Below, piece by piece: positions 50,016 through 59,527 of a stretch of DNA of 64,000 nucleotides. Location: the NCBI GenBank assembly GCA_938015805.1, contig CALLXF010000010.1, forward strand, positions 1-64,000, in the 5' to 3' direction. The stretch comes from an uncultured Saprospiraceae bacterium (GTDB lineage: Bacteria > Bacteroidota > Bacteroidia > Chitinophagales > Saprospiraceae). The translations under genes were made by a program, and so were the position numbers. Positions within the stretch are counted from its first letter, which is position 1, and the number at the start of each line of letters is the position of its first letter. The notes beneath the pieces were generated by a model. That model did not search any database. It worked only from the letters and a program-made list of their open reading frames with translations, and was not told where the DNA came from.

Positions 50016-50804
50016 CTAACTAGCCTTTTTCTTTGCAGCTTCTATACTTGCTTTTAAGGCATCCATAATATCGACGACGTGCTTTTCTTCTGTTTCACCT
50101 TCGTTTATCGTAACTACCTCTTTTCCTTCAACCTTTTGGTTTACAAGATCTAACAATGCATCTCTAAATCTATCCTCAAAATCTACCTGATCAAATGATG
50201 TACTGAGTGAATCCACTAATGACTCCGCCAATTGCAATTGCTTTTCATCTACTTCCTCCTCTACGATATCCGGCACCTCTTTTATATCTCTCAATTCGTA
50301 TGGGTAACGTAATTTATACATTACGATCGCTCCTTTATTGGCGGTAAGCAAAACAACATCTTCTCGATCTCTTAATATTATACGCCCTACACCTGCTTTT
50401 TTAGATTTTTCTAAAACCTTGTAAAACAAATTAAATGTCTTAGTCGCTACCTCACCATTAGGACCTACATAATACACTGCCTCATAACGAGATGGGTGCA
50501 CCTCATCCTGATCCACAAAAGCCTCAATGTCAATAGCTCGAGTACTCTTTAATTTTAAAGCATTAAATTCTGACTGCTCAAAAACCACATATTGATCTGG
50601 CTCATACTCATATCCTTTTACAATATCTTTAGACATCACCTCCTCATCACAGCTCCGACATACTTTTTTATACTTGATCCTACTGTTATCCTTTTTATGA
50701 AGCTGATTAAACCTTATGGTATTTCCTGTCTCTACCGCATTAAAGATTTGTATCGGTATGGTTACTAACGAAAATCTAATATGCCCTTTCCAAATAGATC
50801 TCAT
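50016..50804 (-). CDS. ku: Bacterial Ku DNA end-binding protein
   Basis: 262 aa from the ATG at 50804. The frame extends 27 codons further to another ATG, but Ku proteins start at the conserved MRSIWKGHIRFSLVTIPI, so the internal ATG is right. The Ku beta-barrel core spans residues 1-about 200 (RFNQLHKKDNSRIKYKKVC, CRSC). The C-terminal tail is Lys/Ala-rich (ALKASIEAAKKKAS), the part that contacts LigD and DNA. Ku dimers encircle double-strand DNA ends in non-homologous end joining. Its usual partner ligD is not within the window. Confidence 0.93.
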   Translation of the reverse strand: MRSIWKGHIRFSLVTIPIQIFNAVETGNTIRFNQLHKKDNSRIKYKKVCRSCDEEVMSKDIVKGYEYEPDQYVVFEQSEFNALKLKSTRAIDIEAFVDQDEVHPSRYEAVYYVGPNGEVATKTFNLFYKVLEKSKKAGVGRIILRDREDVVLLTANKGAIVMYKLRYPYELRDIKEVPDIVEEEVDEKQLQLAESLVDSLSTSFDQVDFEDRFRDALLDLVNQKVEGKEVVTINEGETEEKHVVDIMDALKASIEAAKKKAS

Positions 50805-51139
50805 ATTTCTTGTTTTAAAGTCTAAAGATAAATTAAAGCTCTTGCTTAGATAGTATAAAACTTTGAGTGTATGATGGTAATACATATACTCGAGTGGACT
50901 CGAATGGATCTTAAATTAACAATTATAATATAGAGGTATTATAAAAACCAGAAACCATAAGGGCCTAGGAGGATAGACCTTAGGCACTGTATTTTACATA
51001 TTTATAAAATTGATAAATTACAATATGTCAGCTAGATTGCAATTTTTGGAATGATTTTTGAAAATAACATATTGTAGAATATTATAATATGTTCTGCTTT
51101 TAGTAAAAGACTTTATAGAAGTTATAAACAGTATCACAC
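50805..51139. other. 335-base region between divergent ku and OmpA-like genes
   Basis: No ORF. It contains an inverted repeat AACATATT (51066-51073) / AATATGTT (51086-51093), and a weaker one near 50960 with GCCTAGG and CCTTAGGC. The symmetry upstream of the OmpA-like gene could be a regulator site. No TAnnTTTG box on either strand. Confidence 0.4.
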
Positions 51140-51658
51140 ATGAAAGCACTTTATAGCGTATTGCTAGCCGTGTTATTTATTTGGGCATGGAGCCTTAGTA
51201 AAAAGCACATCTGTAACCCTTCAGAATCAAGTTCTGACCCAGCGGAGGTAGTAGCTCCTATTTCCTCGGTAGATAAGGAATGTTATAGTTTAAATCTTAG
51301 GGACAAAAAATCATTTAATGTCAGTTCTGCTTCCAACTTTACCTTTAAATTATCAGAAAGTACTTTTATAGACCCTTCCGATGATTTACTGATAGCAACT
51401 TCTGAACTCATTTCTTATCTGGAAGAAAACCCAAAGCGGGCCATCCAGATAAAGGGTTTGTACTTAGCTACAGAAGAAAATAATACGGAAGAAAAATCTT
51501 TAGGATTGGCCAGAGCCAAAAATATAGAAAGCTTCTTTTTAGACCAAGGCGTTGTGGATGAACAAGTTCAAATCATCGGTAAAAAGGTGGATGACAGCTG
51601 TGTAGAAAATGATATTCTACTCAGGGGGTGTGCCATTGCGTTTGGCGGAAAAAAATAA
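51140..51658 (+). CDS. Membrane-anchored OmpA-like domain protein
   Basis: 172 aa. One N-terminal membrane helix or uncleaved signal (ALYSVLLAVLFIWAWSL). The rest resembles a degenerate OmpA C-terminal (peptidoglycan-associating) domain: FKLSESTFIDPSDDLLIATSELISYLEENP, the IQIKGLYLA strand, then LGLARAKNIESFFLDQGV, which parallels the LSxxRAxxVxxYL helix. The Asp/Arg pair that binds diaminopimelate is only partly recognisable. It lies 29 bases before the stalk/HhH gene. Confidence 0.62.
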   Translation: MKALYSVLLAVLFIWAWSLSKKHICNPSESSSDPAEVVAPISSVDKECYSLNLRDKKSFNVSSASNFTFKLSESTFIDPSDDLLIATSELISYLEENPKRAIQIKGLYLATEENNTEEKSLGLARAKNIESFFLDQGVVDEQVQIIGKKVDDSCVENDILLRGCAIAFGGKK

Positions 51659-51687
51659 TCTATTCATTTAAAGAAAAACAAATAGCT

Positions 51688-52677
51688 ATGTGTTATTGGC
51701 CATTATATTTTATGTTAGGAACTGCTCTTTTAGGGTGGTTAATAGGAAGATCTAGAAAATTAGATACCTCTACATACGATCTCCAACTTTCGTCGAAAGA
51801 CAAACAAATTACAACACTATCCTCCGATTATAAAACATCAAAAGACAGATACTCGGACTTAGAGGCAAATTATAAAAAGCTAAATTCAAAGTATACTGAA
51901 GCCTTGAACGAAATTTCTGCTAAACCAGAAATGCCTGATGCCATTGTAAATACAGAGATCAGAGAAATACCGGTAGAAGTTATAAAAGAGGTAGAAAAAA
52001 TAGTAGAAATAGAAGTTACCAAAGAAGTACCAGTAGAAACGATTAAAGAAATTATCAAAGAGGTAGAGGTAGTAAGGGAAGTTATTAAAGAAGTACCTGT
52101 AGAGACGATAAAAGAAGTGATAAAAGAAATCGAAGTCATCAAAGAAGTACCTGTAGAGACGATCGTAGAAAAAGAAATTATCAAGGAAGTAGAAGTGATC
52201 AAAGAAGTGGAAGTGATTAAAGAAGTAGAAGTGATTAAAGAGATAGAAGTGGTTAGAGAGGTACCTATCGAAATCTATAAAGAAGTAGAGGTCGTTAAGG
52301 GGATAGATATGGAGACACTACAAAAAATGGTAGCTGGTCTAGGAACTGTAGAATTATCTAAGTCCATTACCAGTGAGACAAGAAATATTAAAGAGGGAGA
52401 AATCGTAGAAAGAAGAGTCGTCGTAGAACCTCAAAAATTACGTAAGATAGAAGGTATCGGACCAAAGATTGAAAGTTTACTGCACGATGCAGGTATTAAA
52501 TCTTTTGGGCAATTAGCAGAAGCAAATCCAGATAAAATCAAAGAGATCTTATTAGCCGCCGGTAACAGATATAAGATGCATGACCCGACTAGCTGGCCAC
52601 AGCAAGCGGCTCTAGCAGCTGAAGAAAAGTGGGATGAACTAAAGGTGCTACAAGACTCTTTAAACGGAGGAAAGTAA
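51688..52677 (+). CDS. Membrane-anchored stalk protein with helix-hairpin-helix C-terminus
   Basis: 329 aa from the ATG at 51688; a frame extension to 51628 lies inside the previous gene and is not needed. A membrane helix (MCYWPLYFMLGTALLGWLIG) is followed by a coiled coil (about residues 25-75). Then comes about 130 residues of Glu/Lys/Val/Ile repeats (KEVPVETIKE three times, EVEVIK in tandem), then a helix-hairpin-helix domain (LRKIEGIGPKIESLLHDAGI, FGQLAEANPDKIKEILLAAG). That C-terminal domain is seen in several Bacteroidota proteins and may bind DNA or protein. With the OmpA-like neighbour it could span part of the envelope. Function unknown. Confidence 0.68.
   Translation: MCYWPLYFMLGTALLGWLIGRSRKLDTSTYDLQLSSKDKQITTLSSDYKTSKDRYSDLEANYKKLNSKYTEALNEISAKPEMPDAIVNTEIREIPVEVIKEVEKIVEIEVTKEVPVETIKEIIKEVEVVREVIKEVPVETIKEVIKEIEVIKEVPVETIVEKEIIKEVEVIKEVEVIKEVEVIKEIEVVREVPIEIYKEVEVVKGIDMETLQKMVAGLGTVELSKSITSETRNIKEGEIVERRVVVEPQKLRKIEGIGPKIESLLHDAGIKSFGQLAEANPDKIKEILLAAGNRYKMHDPTSWPQQAALAAEEKWDELKVLQDSLNGGK
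52186..52257 (+). repeat. Tandem 18-base coding repeat, 4 copies
   Basis: The unit GAAGTAGAAGTGATTAAA (encoding EVEVIK) occurs four times in a row with a few changes. It lies within the stalk region of the HhH protein and is a likely site of copy-number variation. Confidence 0.8.
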
Positions 52678-53031: not shown

Positions 53032-53355
53032 TTAATTATTTCTAGATTCTCCTCTTCTTCTTTTAGGTCTAGGTGCAATATTAAATTCCTCCTTGGATAT
53101 AAATCCATCGCTGTTAGAATCAAAACGTTCGAAGTCTTTAAGTAAACGTCCGGTAACTTCTGACTTAGCTAAAAGTCCATCACCATTAGCATCCATTTTA
53201 AATACTTCATCTATACTAGGAGGAGTCCCTCTTTGATTTCTATCAGACCTATTTTGAGTTGAGTTTACCACTTCGTTTGTATCTGTTAATTCTTTTTTTG
53301 ACCGGCAAGAAAATGCTAATACCATTATCAGACCCGCTAATACTAATTGTTTCAT
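53032..53355 (-). CDS. EF-hand lipoprotein
   Basis: 107 aa from the ATG at 53355, which begins a clean lipoprotein signal (LVLAFSC, Cys about 17); a longer frame to 53400 would bury it. Two canonical EF-hand loops are visible: DANGDGLLAKSE (about residues 55-66) and DSNSDGFISKEE (about 78-89). The C-terminus is Arg-rich. A calcium-binding envelope protein. Downstream of the SCO gene but 279 bases away and preceded by the same element as the YHYH operon, so it appears to be a separate but co-regulated unit. Confidence 0.8.
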   Translation of the reverse strand: MKQLVLAGLIMVLAFSCRSKKELTDTNEVVNSTQNRSDRNQRGTPPSIDEVFKMDANGDGLLAKSEVTGRLLKDFERFDSNSDGFISKEEFNIAPRPKRRRGESRNN

Positions 53356-53423
53356 TATATTTTTTTTGTTATCAATCACATACCTTTTTAAATCAATCAT
53401 TTTTTATTAGACTTAAAAGCTTC

Positions 53424-53459
53424 TAAAATCCTTCGACGATATTAACATTTATTAAAATT
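53424..53459 (-). promoter_or_regulatory. Element shared with the YHYH operon, upstream of the EF-hand gene
   Basis: On the minus strand it reads AATTTTAATAAATGTT..., ending CGAAGGATTTTA (53435-53424). The same 12-base end and much of the upstream AT-rich pattern recur before the YHYH gene at 55740-55776. Its 3' end is 68 bases from the start codon. It may be a promoter of the ECF sigma factor encoded at 56799-57362 or a regulator site. Confidence 0.5.
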
Positions 53460-53634
53460 ATTTATGGATGGTGGCCGCTTAGGAACATTCTCTTTTCTAT
53501 AATCACACTACAATCCTGATAGAAATTAATTTAAGTTTTATATTTCTGAAAAGACTATTAAAAAAATGACCCAATGGAAAATCCAAAAGGGCCAAACCTA
53601 CTTAAACCATTATTTTTAGAGACATTCCTTTTAC

Positions 53635-54291
53635 CTAAGATTTTTCTTTTAAAAGACGACCTATATCTTCTTCCAATTTTTTGATCGAGTTTTTATTTAA
53701 TCCATTATAGATTCCTCGGATATGTCTTTGTTGGTCTACTAGGATAAAGTTTTCTGTATGTAAAAACTCATCATCATCCTTTTCTAATCCTAAACTTTCC
53801 TCTACAAAGTATGAGTGTCTACCCATATTATATATTTCTTGTTGATCGCCAGTAACTAGATGCCATTTAGAATCATTCACTAGATATTCCTCGGCAAATG
53901 CCTTGAGCACAGGAACAGAATCTCTAGTCGGTGTGACAGAATGAGACAGTAGCATTACTTTATCATTTGATTTAAATTGCCTTTGTAGATCTACAAAACT
54001 CCTTGTCATTTTAGGGCAAATACCAGGACAAGTAGTAAAGAAAAAATCAGTGACATACACTTTGTTCTGGAAGGTCTCATTTGTGACGGTATCCCCATTT
54101 TGATTTATAAAACTAAAATCAGATACCTTATGAAAACTTTGCAATACGTTATCGTCTGGCTTAAGCCAATAAGGAGTAAAATCTGCATCTTTATAAAATG
54201 GGAGGTGATAATCGCCATCCATTTCTTTATTAGAAATAGATGGTTTACAACTAAATAAAAATACCAATGACACAAAAAATATCTTATTCAT
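53635..54291 (-). CDS. SCO1/SenC-family copper chaperone/thiol protein, lipoprotein
   Basis: 218 aa. Lipoprotein signal with lipobox FLFSC (Cys about 15). The thioredoxin-like SCO domain has the CPGICPK motif (CxxxC, about residue 95) and the distal His in DEFLHTENFILVD, the three Cu ligands of SCO proteins. It delivers copper to cytochrome oxidase CuA or acts as a thiol reductase in the periplasm. It overlaps the MORN gene by eight bases, tying it to the YHYH operon rather than to oxidase genes. Confidence 0.88.
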   Translation of the reverse strand: MNKIFFVSLVFLFSCKPSISNKEMDGDYHLPFYKDADFTPYWLKPDDNVLQSFHKVSDFSFINQNGDTVTNETFQNKVYVTDFFFTTCPGICPKMTRSFVDLQRQFKSNDKVMLLSHSVTPTRDSVPVLKAFAEEYLVNDSKWHLVTGDQQEIYNMGRHSYFVEESLGLEKDDDEFLHTENFILVDQQRHIRGIYNGLNKNSIKKLEEDIGRLLKEKS

Positions 54292-54901
54292 TCTGGCTTT
54301 GTAAAACTACTTCCTCATTTTCTAATGAAAAACACAAGCTTGCTCTTTTTAATCCAAAGATCCTTCCATGCCTTGCTTCGTAGTTATTATATAATTTTCC
54401 ATTCTCTCTCCACGATTGCTGTAAACCGTGCTCCTTTCCGTTTTCTAGATTTATTTTTTTAAACAATCTCCCTGATTTATAAAATTGCTTTTGTGGGCCT
54501 TCTCCTTTTCCATTAACTAGAAATTGTTCTGATCTTAAATTTCCATTCTTCCACCAAGATCTGGTAATTCCTTCCTGAATACCATTTACATATTCACTGG
54601 AGAAACTTAGATGTCCATTATCAAAATACTTTAGGCTTTTACCATTTTTTATTCCGTTTAAATATTCAATAGATTCGGCCAAAGAGTCATTTTTATAATA
54701 ATCTATACTTATACCTGTAAATGGTATATCATTATCATAAACAATTCCTTTTGCTCGATTTAATACCAACTCTGATTTAAGTACAGAGCGAATGATATTT
54801 TTCCTACTAGTAAATGTCTTCTCCATAGGACTTTCTTGAAAAGAATGACAAGAAAGTAACCCTATGAAAAAGATCCAACAAAATTTATTAGTTAATCGCA
54901 T
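54284..54901 (-). CDS. MORN_2-repeat lipoprotein (second copy)
   Basis: 205 aa from the ATG at 54901 (the frame extends to 54946, but the lipoprotein signal MRLTNKFCWIFFIGLLSC begins here). Repeats such as YLNGIKNGKSLKYFDNGHLS, NGIQEGITRSWWKNGNLRS and NGKGEGPQKQFYKSGRLF are MORN_2 units. It overlaps the YHYH gene by 14 bases and the SCO gene by eight, so the three are translationally coupled. Only loosely similar to the MORN lipoprotein at 2404. Function unknown. Confidence 0.75.
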   Translation of the reverse strand: MRLTNKFCWIFFIGLLSCHSFQESPMEKTFTSRKNIIRSVLKSELVLNRAKGIVYDNDIPFTGISIDYYKNDSLAESIEYLNGIKNGKSLKYFDNGHLSFSSEYVNGIQEGITRSWWKNGNLRSEQFLVNGKGEGPQKQFYKSGRLFKKINLENGKEHGLQQSWRENGKLYNNYEARHGRIFGLKRASLCFSLENEEVVLQSQNE

Positions 54902-55703
54902 TTGGAGTACCCTGATAATCTCCAGGGAATAAAATGTAATATGCATTTAAGTACAAGTCATTTTGAATATGGTAATGATATTCGCCATCTTCATTATGCG
55001 GCGTAGGTCCAAAGTGACCTCCAGATTCATCCAAATCAGATGGATAAGTGCCGTCATAGTCTCGTCTTCCATAAAGAAAAAAGCCATCTGCAATTACCCC
55101 AATCAACTTATCATCATCTTCTGACCAAGCATGCGGCTCTAAATGGTAATGGTAACTCTGAGGACCTGTATGTCCTGCTGTAAAATCTAGACTGCCTACG
55201 GCATTATCTAATGGCACATTAGGTCCTTCTTCATCATTATAAATCACTGACCCACTAACAGCAAATCCTATCGCCCCTAAACCTGTAGCTGTAGGCGAAT
55301 TTGCAAGCTGAGGATTAGTGGGAATGCGTAATGTATAGCTTCCATTAAAATCATCAATATTACCGGGAGCCATCATCTCAAATGAAGTAACTGTAGGTGC
55401 TACAAACAAAGGATGATCTTCCTCAGCTGCCTCTGTAACAATAACATTACCCATAGGGCCGTCAAGCGATCTCTCAGTCGTATTTGACCAATATGGAGAT
55501 GTATGATCTGGTAATCCATTTGTCTCTAATACAACCTCATCACCATCCAGCGTAATCGTAAAATTGTCTCCAAATTCGGCAAAAGCAACATGTAATTCTG
55601 CATCAGAAGTAGATGGATCTTCGTCTTTACAAGACTGCAGTGACAAGACTACACTTAAAATTCCTAAAATACAGACTGATAAATACCTCATGTTCAATTT
55701 CAT
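54888..55703 (-). CDS. YHYH domain lipoprotein
   Basis: 271 aa. Lipoprotein signal (VVLSLQSC, Cys about 25). The YHYH domain is identified by SYHYHLEP and by EYHYHIQND near the C-terminus, with IADGFFLYGRRDYDG, ESGGHFGPTPHN between them. The paired HxH motifs look made to bind metal, and family members are secreted or periplasmic. First gene of a three-gene coupled set with MORN and SCO. An alternative ATG lies four codons in. Metal identity unknown; copper is suggested by the SCO neighbour. Confidence 0.82.
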   Translation of the reverse strand: MKLNMRYLSVCILGILSVVLSLQSCKDEDPSTSDAELHVAFAEFGDNFTITLDGDEVVLETNGLPDHTSPYWSNTTERSLDGPMGNVIVTEAAEEDHPLFVAPTVTSFEMMAPGNIDDFNGSYTLRIPTNPQLANSPTATGLGAIGFAVSGSVIYNDEEGPNVPLDNAVGSLDFTAGHTGPQSYHYHLEPHAWSEDDDKLIGVIADGFFLYGRRDYDGTYPSDLDESGGHFGPTPHNEDGEYHYHIQNDLYLNAYYILFPGDYQGTPNAIN

Positions 55704-55739
55704 TTTTCTTTGTTTTATCGTTTAGACAACATAGTTTAT

Positions 55740-55776
55740 AAAATCCTTCGTTATCTAAAAATATTTATCAGAATTC
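55740..55776 (-). promoter_or_regulatory. Element shared with the EF-hand gene, upstream of the YHYH operon
   Basis: On the minus strand it begins AATTCTGATAAATATTTTTA and ends CGAAGGATTTTA (55751-55740), the same 12 bases as before the EF-hand gene, with most of the preceding 20 bases also alike. It ends 36 bases before the YHYH ATG, a suitable promoter distance. Confidence 0.5.
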
Positions 55777-55973
55777 CTGCTTTTTCTAGTATCCAGTATT
55801 TGCTTAAAAATAAAATAGTACAATAACGAGCGATCGTAAATATGTATTTTGTAATCGCAAAGTATATTATTACACCAACCTAAAAAATACTCTTGAATCT
55901 TGTCTAATTATAAGGTAGGTCAAAATGAATGTAGATAATTAAAGCCCTAGAAATAGACCAGTAATCTTATCTA

Positions 55974-56474
55974 CTAATTATTTCTTTCTCTGTCACCTTT
56001 GCCAAGTCCTGGTCTTCTCATCCTGTCTCCTTTAAGTCTATCAGAAAAAACATTATTGACTACTTCCCTTTTGAATGAATCAAAATGTAGTTCTTGTTCT
56101 TTACTAAGTATACTTTTAACCTCATCAAAGTGTGAGGATAGTGCAGATAATTTTTGCAATTCTAGTTCTTGGATTTTCGATTCGATTTTTTTCTTCTCAC
56201 TCGGTTCCATTCCTTCTAACAATGACTTTTTTATCAAGGCACGTTGAGTCTGATTTAAAGCCTTACTCTTACTTTTATGCTTATTAATTAAATCTTGTAA
56301 TAATTTTTCTTGATCTGAATTTAGATCCAGGACGTGATGAGGAGCTCCACGCGATCTATCGTTCTCTAGATGTGGACCTTTAGGTCTATTTAAAATAAAG
56401 AACGTAAGGATTAATAGATTTAAACATACTAATCCTACGATGATATACTTATATAATTTGGTATCGTCTTTCAT
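55974..56474 (-). CDS. Spy/CnrX-like periplasmic (heavy-metal) sensor
   Basis: 166 aa. One N-terminal membrane anchor (YIIVGLVCLNLLILTFFIL), then a helical hairpin domain with LDLNSDQEKLLQDLINKHKSKS, LLEGMEPSEKKKIESKI and LSKEQELHFDSFKRE, the layout of the Spy/CpxP/ZraP/CnrX family. His and Met residues near the start (GAPHH) and NKHK could bind metal. The C-terminus is Arg/Gly-rich. It follows the small membrane protein and sigma factor by five bases, as CnrX accompanies CnrY and CnrH. Confidence 0.72.
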   Translation of the reverse strand: MKDDTKLYKYIIVGLVCLNLLILTFFILNRPKGPHLENDRSRGAPHHVLDLNSDQEKLLQDLINKHKSKSKALNQTQRALIKKSLLEGMEPSEKKKIESKIQELELQKLSALSSHFDEVKSILSKEQELHFDSFKREVVNNVFSDRLKGDRMRRPGLGKGDRERNN

Positions 56475-56479
56475 AATTA

Positions 56480-56767
56480 TTAGTATCCACTATAATCAAT
56501 GATGCCTATCTCTTGATAACTAAGAACTGAGGATCCATCATTTCTCAAATTCGAATTTTCAGCATTAAAGTAATAAATACTTATTGCATTAATAACTAAA
56601 AGCACAGAAGCCGCAGCCATCATAGCAGATTTAGACATTCCAAAAACCCTAGTCTCTCTTAAAACTAATCGTTCTTCAATTATAGGAAACAAATCTCTTT
56701 TAAGTTTTGTCCTCTTTATATGTTGTGTACTATTTAATACTTCATCTATCCACCGATCTTTTTCCAT
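56480..56767 (-). CDS. Small single-pass membrane protein, putative anti-sigma factor
   Basis: 95 aa. A cytoplasmic helical N-terminal half (DRWIDEVLNSTQHIKRTKLK, LFPIIEERLVLRET), one membrane helix (SAMMAAASVLLVINAISIYYF, about residues 45-66) and a short periplasmic tail. This topology and its position directly after an ECF sigma gene fit a small anti-sigma factor of the CnrY type. There is no ZAS zinc motif. Sequence identity with known anti-sigmas cannot be judged by eye, so function rests on context. Confidence 0.6.
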   Translation of the reverse strand: MEKDRWIDEVLNSTQHIKRTKLKRDLFPIIEERLVLRETRVFGMSKSAMMAAASVLLVINAISIYYFNAENSNLRNDGSSVLSYQEIGIIDYSGY

Positions 56768-56798
56768 TATATCAGTTTAATTATTTATTAGACAGTGA

Positions 56799-57362
56799 TT
56801 ATTTATTTTTCCTTCGATATTCATATATTTTTCCTAAGTCGACTCTCAATTTTGTTTTTGCTCTTTGTAATAATGACTCCGTGGCTTTTAAAGAAATTTC
56901 CATGATATCCGCTACCTCTTGTCTAGGCAATTCTTCTATAAAACTTAAAATAAAAGCAGTTTTCTGATTGTCTCCTAAAGAATCAATAGCTTTAAAAAGT
57001 ATGGAAGCTTTTTCTTTATTTTCTAATGTAACTCCAGGATTTAAAAAGTCAGAAATTTGAAATTGAGAATTTTCTAGCGGACTCATCCTCGATCTCTTTT
57101 TCTTTTTTAAAAAATTAAGCGATGCATTTACTGTTATTCTATAAAGCCAGGTATTTACGGCTGAGGCCCCTTTAAAAGTGAACGCTTTTTTAAATACATT
57201 AACAAAAACATCTTGTGTCACTTCTTCTGCGTCTTGATCATTTTTTAGATAACTAATAGCGAGATTATATACCATACTACTATGGGTAACATAAAAAGCT
57301 TTAAAAGCGACTTTATCCCCTTTAGCTATTTTCCCTAATAATATTACGTCTTGTTTACTCAA
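56799..57362 (-). CDS. ECF RNA polymerase sigma factor
   Basis: 187 aa. Sigma region 2 at about residues 25-90 (YNLAISYLKNDQDAEEVTQDVF, NTWLYRITVNASLNFLKKKK) and region 4 at about 125-180 (NQKTAFILSFIEELPRQEVADIM, LKATESLLQRAKTKLR). No region 3 and no extra C-terminal domain, a plain ECF sigma. First gene in a set with a probable anti-sigma and a Spy/CnrX-like sensor. It probably drives its own operon and perhaps the YHYH and EF-hand units downstream. Confidence 0.9.
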   Translation of the reverse strand: MSKQDVILLGKIAKGDKVAFKAFYVTHSSMVYNLAISYLKNDQDAEEVTQDVFVNVFKKAFTFKGASAVNTWLYRITVNASLNFLKKKKRSRMSPLENSQFQISDFLNPGVTLENKEKASILFKAIDSLGDNQKTAFILSFIEELPRQEVADIMEISLKATESLLQRAKTKLRVDLGKIYEYRRKNK

Positions 57363-57484: not shown

Positions 57485-59527
57485 CTAATTTCCCGGAGAA
57501 ACTCCTGGGCCTACCGTAGTGTCTCTAAACCAAACTTCTGTGTAGCAACCATTTTCATACTGTTTCTGAATATCACCATCATAAGTTTCCGCTCCAGCAC
57601 ACCAGACCATATTTTTCTTAGGATCTTTTCCATTGGTTTGATTATAGGCTCCTTGTTTAAAATAAATGGTTTCGTTGCTATATGCGGATGCTCTTTCTGT
57701 TCCATCTTGTCCTATAGGAACAAATAACTTATTGACTTGGTCAGGTCGATCAGATGTCTTTACATATTCGGATGTTATAAGATTTTTAGTAAATGTTATA
57801 GTCTCATGTCGATCACTTTTAAATGTCAAGTACATAATACCGTTATAAACATTCACAGTGTATGAAAATTCTTCTCCTAGTTCAATTCCATCTTTTGGTT
57901 CCTCAGGAAAATCATTTTTACTTGTTCCTATTACAGACATATCATGACCCCAGACTGGAAGAGAATAATCCCATCTGCCGGAGTTATCATCACCTTCCGT
58001 ATTTATCTCATAATTCCAAAAGACAGATCCTTTTTCATGACCTGGAAATTTTTTGTAAAATATTTTTAGTGGTTCGTTTTCATGTCCAGCACCACTATGT
58101 ATTTGTCCGACTACAGTCGAATAAGATGCAGCCACTCTAGCATCTCCAGAAACGGATACATGCATCACTCTACAAGTACCCGTTAACTTCCCTCCTTCCT
58201 CTGGGGTCCATTCTCTTTTTTCATGTAATTCTGTTCTTGTATTACTCGAGTTTTTAGAAGTAACACCAGAGTTAGGTGTTTTGTAAACGACCCATCTTCT
58301 AGTACCGTCTATAGCAGTATAGAAGAAATTTTTATGTTCAAAGTCTATTAAGTCATCAACACTCGTTCCATCACCCATCAACATTTTAAATTTATCCATA
58401 CAATCGATTACCTCACTCGGATATACGGTTTTACTACTAAGCCCATCATTTGCTGCAAAATACCCAGCATTAGATATCGCATCATCACTGATCATCATAC
58501 TTGCTGATTTAAACCAAACTTCCGTGTAGTTTCCATCCGCATATTGTTTTTCTAAATCACCATTATGCGTTTCTGCTCCCGAGCACCAGACCTTATTAAG
58601 TTTAGGATCTTTTCCATTAGTTTGGTTATAAGATCCTAGTTTGAAAAATAGTCCTTCATTGGCGTAAGCCTCTTTACGCTCTACCCCATCTTGTCCAATA
58701 GGCACAAATAAATTTTTTACTTGCTCTGGCATATCTGAAGGCTTAGCGTATTCCGAATCGATCAGATTTTTAGTAAACGTTTTAGTCTCATGTCCCTCAC
58801 TCGTAAATGTAAGATGCATCACGCCATCTTTTATTTCTATCTCATAACTAAATTCTTCTCCTAAAGCAATTCCATCTTTTGGTTCTGGTGGGTAAGAATT
58901 TTTATCCGTTCCTACTACAGAAAAATCGTAACCCCAAATAGGATAAGAATAATCCCACCGTCCAGAATTATCATCCCCAGCCGTATTGATTTCATAGTTC
59001 CAAAAAACTGAGCCTTTAGTATGACCAGGGAATTTTTTATAGAATAATTTAAATGGTTCGTTTTCGTGTCCATCAGCACTATGAATTTGTCCTACAACGA
59101 CTGAGAATGTAGAGGCTACACGAGCATCACCTGTTGTAGCTACATTCATTACTTTAAGTGTAGCATTTAATTTTGCCTCAGTTTTAGGAGCCCATTTTTT
59201 TAATTGAGCTAGCTCTGTTCTCGTATTATTAGAGGTTCCGTGGGTATTTCCTGCATTAGGCGTTTTAAAAACAACCCAATCTTTTTTACCATCATTGGCG
59301 GCATAAAAAAAGTCTTTTTGCTCAAAGTCTATTGCGGGACCAGCATTGGTTCCATTTCCCAAGATCAAATTCCAATGCTGGAAAAAAGGGATAATATCAC
59401 TTGCATAAATCGTATCCATGGCAATGGTACTTTTAGATTCTTTAGCAGAATTTGCACAGCCATTTAGTATTAAAAAAGTACTAATAATTAATAATGTAGA
59501 TAATGATGTTGTTAGATATTTTTTCAT
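57485..59527 (-). CDS. Tandem PL7-family polysaccharide lyase (alginate lyase 2-like), lipoprotein
   Basis: 680 aa. Lipoprotein signal with Cys about 24 (LILNGC). Two PL7 domains in tandem (about residues 40-345 and 370-670). Each has the three catalytic signatures: NTRTEL, VGQIHS and GxYNQTNGKDP (FFKLGSYNQ; YFKQGAYNQ). The copies are alike in most motifs, so the gene arose by internal duplication. PL7 enzymes cleave alginate or related uronans by beta-elimination at the cell surface. It is last in the uronate operon, 109 bases after uxuA. The exact uronan is inferred only. Confidence 0.87.
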   Translation of the reverse strand: MKKYLTTSLSTLLIISTFLILNGCANSAKESKSTIAMDTIYASDIIPFFQHWNLILGNGTNAGPAIDFEQKDFFYAANDGKKDWVVFKTPNAGNTHGTSNNTRTELAQLKKWAPKTEAKLNATLKVMNVATTGDARVASTFSVVVGQIHSADGHENEPFKLFYKKFPGHTKGSVFWNYEINTAGDDNSGRWDYSYPIWGYDFSVVGTDKNSYPPEPKDGIALGEEFSYEIEIKDGVMHLTFTSEGHETKTFTKNLIDSEYAKPSDMPEQVKNLFVPIGQDGVERKEAYANEGLFFKLGSYNQTNGKDPKLNKVWCSGAETHNGDLEKQYADGNYTEVWFKSASMMISDDAISNAGYFAANDGLSSKTVYPSEVIDCMDKFKMLMGDGTSVDDLIDFEHKNFFYTAIDGTRRWVVYKTPNSGVTSKNSSNTRTELHEKREWTPEEGGKLTGTCRVMHVSVSGDARVAASYSTVVGQIHSGAGHENEPLKIFYKKFPGHEKGSVFWNYEINTEGDDNSGRWDYSLPVWGHDMSVIGTSKNDFPEEPKDGIELGEEFSYTVNVYNGIMYLTFKSDRHETITFTKNLITSEYVKTSDRPDQVNKLFVPIGQDGTERASAYSNETIYFKQGAYNQTNGKDPKKNMVWCAGAETYDGDIQKQYENGCYTEVWFRDTTVGPGVSPGN

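Follow-up and report, generated by a model that had tools for sequence, protein, structure and literature searches.

A Candidate ECF Sigma Factor Regulon for Envelope Metal Handling, with a CnrX-like Sensor and YHYH, SCO, and EF-Hand Lipoproteins, in an Uncultured Saprospiraceae Bacterium

Known Systems and the Locus under Study

The CnrYXH system of Cupriavidus metallidurans is an extracytoplasmic function (ECF) sigma factor system that senses nickel and cobalt, and its genes run in the order cnrY-cnrX-cnrH, the sigma factor gene not being the first. A locus with similar components was analyzed in a 64,000-nt stretch of contig CALLXF010000010.1 (assembly GCA_938015805.1; hereafter the window), from an uncultured Saprospiraceae bacterium. 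Seven open reading frames, all on the minus strand, span positions 53032-57362 and encode, in reading order, an ECF sigma factor, a 95-residue protein, a sensor, a YHYH protein, a MORN protein, a SCO protein, and an EF-hand lipoprotein. The evidence points to a dedicated ECF sigma regulon that probably serves envelope metal handling, most likely of copper. That these genes act as one regulatory and functional unit is well supported by genome comparison, because their order is conserved, the promoter that they share is nearly absent elsewhere in the genomes, and the sensor and YHYH families are linked across the whole order.

A preliminary description, made from the letters of the window, had read the first three genes as an ECF sigma factor, a small single-pass protein, and a Spy/CnrX-like sensor, followed by the four lipoprotein genes. 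All seven frames and their domains were recovered; the sensor falls under the Pfam cut-offs, but is CnrX-like by profile and by fold. The same description took the sigma-first order to be that of CnrH/CnrY/CnrX, which does not agree with the Cupriavidus order. The window locus is like CnrYXH in having an ECF sigma factor, a small single-pass anti-sigma candidate, and an N-terminally anchored helical-hairpin sensor, the model of which matches CnrX best among solved structures. Unlike CnrYXH, its sigma factor is nearer to sigma-E than to CnrH, its gene order differs, four of the five CnrX ligands are not kept, and the promoter motif precedes YHYH, SCO, EF-hand, and CotH genes rather than a resistance-nodulation-division efflux pump. 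By analogy, the locus may work like CnrYXH; full membership was rejected on account of the differences in ligands, targets, and gene order.

Other described systems resemble parts of the locus or of its relatives. The CxxxC motif and distal histidine of SCO1/SenC chaperones are kept here, whereas the operon partners, YHYH and MORN, are unlike those of known SCO1/SenC proteins. Genes for MbnP (PF20243) and a di-haem partner, as in the MbnP/MbnH copper pairs, stand in the sensor operon of many relatives; the pair is absent from the window locus, and matches to the NCBIfam models for MbnP and MbnH stay under the cut-off. The accessible part of a 2013 methanobactin paper presents the copper link of this pair as still open (PMC3621798). 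CotH, polyphosphate polymerase, and DUF4956 travel together in Gram-positive Pel operons, according to the accessible part of the source (PMC7112168); CotH, VTC, and neighboring genes likewise lie behind the sigma promoter in two relatives (G074 and G087), but in another phylum, behind an ECF promoter, and with no Pel genes seen. In its accessible part, a paper on copper in Bizionia names two SCO proteins and gives no context for them (PMC11213822). The supposition that the set had not been described as a unit held in the literature searched, most subscription papers being outside it, and the novelty of a sigma-YHYH-SCO regulon is accordingly provisional.

Gene Layout and Conservation

The seven genes form about three promoter-led units. 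The features, all on the minus strand of the window, are:

56799..57362, minus: ECF sigma factor; TTG start; Sigma70_r2/r4_2
56788..56816, minus: weak promoter copy with 2 mismatches, 20 nt ahead of the 95-residue gene, overlapping the sigma 3′ end
56480..56767, minus: 95-residue single-pass protein, probable anti-sigma factor; conserved between sigma factor and sensor
55974..56474, minus: membrane-anchored CnrX/Spy-like helical-hairpin sensor, by profile and fold matches
55722..55750, minus: perfect promoter CGAAGGATT-N14-GTCTAA ahead of the YHYH gene
54888..55703, minus: YHYH lipoprotein (PF14240), by Pfam domain
54284..54946, minus: MORN_2 repeat lipoprotein; likely start 54901, overlapping the YHYH stop
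53635..54291, minus: SCO1/SenC lipoprotein; start overlaps the MORN stop
53407..53435, minus: perfect promoter CGAAGGATT-N14-GTCTAA ahead of the EF-hand gene
53032..53400, minus: EF-hand lipoprotein; likely start 53355; EF-hand_5

With the likely starts, which were picked by eye, the YHYH and MORN frames overlap by 14 nt and the MORN and SCO frames by 8 nt, so that coupling of these three genes is plausible.

Among 60 related genomes, YHYH matches were found in 13 and sensor matches in 11, and in two of them (G033 and G035) the sigma factor, 95-residue protein, sensor, YHYH, MORN, and SCO genes are kept in order. A profile scan of public genomes yielded 328 YHYH relatives, the best 80 of which were analyzed, a set biased to close relatives and including near-duplicates. 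MORN was found in 71 and SCO in 68 of the 73 loci with at least 2.5 kb downstream of YHYH. By a scripted rule, 27 of the 80 loci have a sigma and sensor pair upstream of YHYH in the same orientation (sensor-YHYH gap of at most 150 bp in 17). Reading by eye raised the count to 33: two loci with a start overlap (L066 and L115), two with additional intervening genes (L109 and L121), two with the pair downstream (L077 and L103), and one with a divergent arrangement (L067) were added, and the weak L107 was removed. Culturable relatives with the linked locus include Olleya marilimosa and Echinicola pacifica. Sigma orthologues stand ahead of YHYH in many loci, and matches to the sigma family away from the locus numbered 8 in 462,830 bases. 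In 20 of the 80 loci, mostly flavobacterial, an EF-hand relative is found near YHYH; elsewhere, such relatives stand behind the motif. The expectation that the gene order would recur in relatives was therefore borne out for six genes; the exact seven are not universal: flavobacteria have the EF-hand gene next to YHYH, other genomes have it at a different place, and many have a sigma module that is not linked or that has been replaced.

The families are also associated across the order. Among 198 genomes, the sensor family was present in 83 and PF14240 in 91, with both in 61 and neither in 85 (Fisher p = 2.6e-11, for genomes that are not independent). The strict YHYH subfamily occurs in 25 of the 198, and a YHYH gene lies within 10 kb of at least 43 of the 91 sensor genes.

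A Shared Promoter and Its Targets

Two perfect copies of CGAAGGATT-N14-GTCTAA occur in the window, ahead of the YHYH and EF-hand genes, and the whole source genome (3.59 Mb) holds three, against 0.008 expected. The third lies 19 nt ahead of the gene for a secreted CotH-LTD protein with a type IX secretion system (T9SS) signal, the same type of protein that bears the flavobacterial promoter in L121. This version of the motif was first spotted by eye and then tested. Because matches with up to two mismatches are no better than a backwards control (8 genome-wide, versus 15), the claim is confined to perfect copies. The two-mismatch copy ahead of the 95-residue gene, not significant genome-wide by itself, is suggestive only; in the corresponding position, ahead of the equivalent gene, flavobacterial loci and loci from across the order have a good copy.

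The promoter of nine flavobacterial-type loci was reached through a de novo count of words in the upstream regions of 33 sigma genes, which returned mostly A/T-rich words, together with the lead CGCAA..CATC. It reads GCAAGTTTTT-N-CATCTAA, has a near-constant length of 28 nt, and nearly always lies 7-34 nt ahead of a start codon. The 27 sites with up to two mismatches precede sigma (6), anti-sigma (7), EF-hand (3), main YHYH (8), YHYH paralogue (1), CotH (1), and unrelated (1) genes. With up to one mismatch, 28 sites were found in the nine loci and none in the other 71 (0.1 expected). All 15 perfect copies in eight of the nine genomes lie inside the locus, and the genome-wide claim is restricted to these, because 42 sites were found at up to one mismatch versus 16 in the control. 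Two one-mismatch sites outside the locus have no sensible gene behind them.

The strict window-type motif gave 23 sites in the other 71 loci, 19 of them near module genes (in 17 loci), and none in five shuffles. In 22 related genomes, 40 exact copies were found versus 1 in the backwards control, three genomes having none. Sixteen copies are inside the main locus and 24 outside. Of the latter, 13 stand directly ahead of a fitting target: five precede YHYH genes of other subfamilies, three CotH genes, and two EF-hand genes, and one each precedes a VTC operon, a DUF2490-CotH-VTC operon, and an anti-sigma/sensor pair. At a greater distance upstream, another three are followed by an EF-hand-CotH pair, a PAP2-CotH pair, and a di-haem MauG-type gene; one precedes a T9SS protein gene, and one is about 330 nt from a possible DUF4956 operon. 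The anti-sigma/sensor pair (L218) comes from the same genome as L063, a YHYH locus that bears the promoter and no linked triad, which is the arrangement predicted for action in trans. The same promoter type, with one mismatch allowed and gene labels taken from gene order, was found ahead of anti-sigma or sigma genes in 8 of 20 sensor loci (L231, L232, L234, L237, L240, L242, L246, and L247).

Exchange of the Regulator

Ten flavobacterial loci (L061, L075, L089, L090, L110, L117, L119, L123, L126, and L132) keep the EF-hand-YHYH-MORN-SCO genes without the triad, and carry instead a divergent histidine kinase and LytTR response regulator, the domains of which were checked in L061. The best repeats ahead of the EF-hand or YHYH gene have a 21-bp period in all ten. 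The unit TTCACTGAAAA occurs twice with at most four mismatches in eight of the ten and with fewer than six in none of 68 other loci, a descriptive comparison, the unit having been derived from the LytTR group itself.

The Sigma Factor, the 95-Residue Protein, and the Sensor

The sigma factor matches Sigma70_r2 (Pfam, 5e-15), and its closest Protein Data Bank (PDB) chains are sigma-E (2e-18) and CnrH (3e-7). The 95-residue protein has no Pfam match, and a 31-sequence profile of its family gave no match to CnrY; its size and single hydrophobic stretch were judged by eye. N60 is conserved in 33 and A51 in 32 of 34 aligned members. From its position and form, it is probably the anti-sigma factor. 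In the accessible part of one source, only 6% of Bacteroidetes ECF factors are reported with a class I anti-sigma factor, and other classes may dominate there (PMC7406223).

The sensor scores under the Pfam cut-offs for LTXXQ (22.7 versus 24.3 bits) and Metal_resist (17.3 versus 29.2 bits). A profile of its family (44 sequences) matches three chains of solved structure, those of Spy (7e-5), CnrX (3e-4; listed under the name CnrR), and NccX (6e-4). In a Foldseek search with the AlphaFold model (mean confidence, pLDDT, 84.5), the first nine of 329 matches were all CnrX or NccX (probability 0.99-1.00, E 0.037-0.10), and CpxP and Spy ranked below them; no match reached E 0.001, the best being 0.037. 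The modeled fold thus supports a CnrX-like sensor. N19, Q55, H66, and Q127 are present in 34 of 34 family members and H115 in 29, and His66 and His115 could form a new ligand pair.

Diverged versions of this module were also seen. In four flavobacterial loci (L102:13392-14910, L111:13174-14693, L112:13378-14891, and L128:13203-14730), the cassette is followed immediately downstream by a second sigma/Spy-like module, encoded on the other strand. A diverged sigma/anti-sigma/sensor locus (L042:2757-10984) includes two T9SS metallophosphatases, a T9SS YHYH protein, and HupE/UreJ_2 and Lcl_C genes, and similar gene sets occur in L239, L243, and L244.

The Lipoproteins

The YHYH domain was found at 3e-12 (47.3 bits, cut-off 25), MORN_2 at 5e-11 (41.9, cut-off 29.6), SCO1-SenC at 9e-26 (90.9, cut-off 22.8), and EF-hand_5 at 1e-8 (34.3, cut-off 25.9). 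The SCO protein matches Bacillus subtilis Sco (YpmQ) at 2e-21; the CxxxC copper ligands are kept in 74 of 74 family members and the distal histidine (His178) in 73. The YHYH protein has conserved His and Asp residues and a model with a pLDDT of 80.7. Fusions of YHYH and EF-hand domains occur in L112 and L121. In L034 (9814-11796), a YHYH domain is fused behind thrombospondin type 3 repeats, probably a surface-exposed version.

The Copper Link and a Proposed Mechanism

Copper is the best candidate metal, judged from the genes involved, because the SCO protein keeps CxxxC and the distal histidine and because of MbnP and MauG. The presence of MbnP in 170 of the 198 genomes makes its co-occurrence with the sensor uninformative; physical linkage was used instead, and an MbnP gene lies within 10 kb of at least 21 of the 91 sensor genes, versus about 1 expected. 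In the 20 sensor loci, which were drawn from linked ones before MbnP was noticed, a MauG-like gene was found in ten and an MbnP gene in nine. The SCO and MbnP/MauG versions are joined in one locus in Neolewinella (L066 and L247). The source genome has one MbnP match, outside the seven-gene locus. The envelope metal unit proposed in the preliminary description therefore stands as a regulatory unit, by order, promoter, and linkage, while its copper is backed indirectly, by the SCO ligands and MbnP/MauG.

At rest, the 95-residue protein would hold the sigma factor at the inner membrane, under the control of the CnrX-like periplasmic sensor. Binding of a ligand, most likely copper, would release the sigma factor, in the direction of response that we infer, and the free factor would transcribe from CGAAGGAT-N15-GTCTA promoters (GCAAGTT-N14-CATCTAA in flavobacterial relatives). 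The exported or secreted products would be the EF-hand protein, YHYH with MORN and SCO, the CotH-kinase protein, and, in relatives, MbnP with its MauG-like di-haem partner. In the periplasm, SCO may serve in copper loading or reduction; YHYH, with its conserved His and Asp residues, might be a metal-binding client or an enzyme.

Alternative Explanations

The same regulon might answer a calcium/phosphate or surface-matrix signal and run a secreted phosphorylation or mineral/matrix program, in which SCO would be a thiol reductase. Such a program would suit the CotH gene directly behind the motif in the source genome and several relatives, the VTC and DUF2490 operons behind it, the metallophosphatases in the G051 locus, and the Pel operon families described above. 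It fits poorly with SCO copper ligands kept in nearly all members, with MbnP/MauG pairs inside the sensor operon of many relatives, and with a sensor fold closest to metal sensors, and is considered unlikely. A general envelope-stress regulon, with a Spy/CpxP-like misfolding sensor and no specific metal, is less probable still: by sequence, the sensor profile matches Spy best, and Spy and CpxP are both among the fold matches, but CnrX and NccX rank above both by fold, and no chaperone or protease is among the few motif targets seen. Chance or passive synteny, by which the genes would be neighbors without common control, could draw on the absence of the triad beside YHYH in most of the 80 loci. 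This explanation was rejected as highly improbable on the promoter and linkage evidence, the shared promoter having almost no other genomic copies, those outside the locus preceding the same families, and the linkage extending across the order.

Several observations weigh against a copper-responsive sigma regulon. The metal ligands of CnrX, which we take to be H42, H46, E63, H119, and M123 (E63 and M123 are named in PDB titles), have no sensor equivalents except for H119, which aligns to H115. In the window, no motif copy precedes the sigma gene. The YHYH model has no solved relative (best Foldseek E 1.2; none of 529 chains at Z of 2 or more). Most of the 80 loci do not have the sigma triad next to YHYH, 22 of the 83 sensor genomes have no PF14240 match, and 6 of the 24 off-locus promoter copies precede nothing sensible. 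Phosphate or calcium would explain the CotH, EF-hand, VTC, and metallophosphatase neighbors no less well than copper does.

Neighboring Features

No tRNA or Rfam match was found within the window. Directly upstream of the sigma gene lies a gene for an alginate lyase (PF08787) protein with two domain copies (57485-59527); a close relative stands just upstream of the triad in G035 (L034:4082-6118), with no evident link to the regulon. On the other side, positions 51628-52677, adjoining an OmpA-like protein, encode a long EVIKEVE-type repeat run that is preceded by an anchor-like segment at the N-terminus and followed by a helix-hairpin-helix region at the C-terminus, and 50016-50885 a Ku-like DNA-end-binding protein (by eye).

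Significance

The YHYH proteins are a family named for a motif, for which no function was found, and the regulon would give them their first promoter, sensor, and regulatory context. The 95-residue family, together with the CnrX-like sensor, is a concrete candidate for another Bacteroidetes anti-sigma class, and the lineages that have changed to LytTR control offer a clear example from nature of one regulator taking the place of another while the output stays the same. More tentatively, a widespread, undescribed copper regulon of the Bacteroidota may exist, in which a CnrX-like sensor and ECF sigma factor govern YHYH proteins (possibly new copper proteins or enzymes), SCO, MbnP/MauG, EF-hand, and CotH, rewired to LytTR in some Flavobacteriaceae. 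The locus makes an uncharacterized bacterial metal system directly testable, as a small, widely conserved set of secreted and probably copper-related Bacteroidota proteins.

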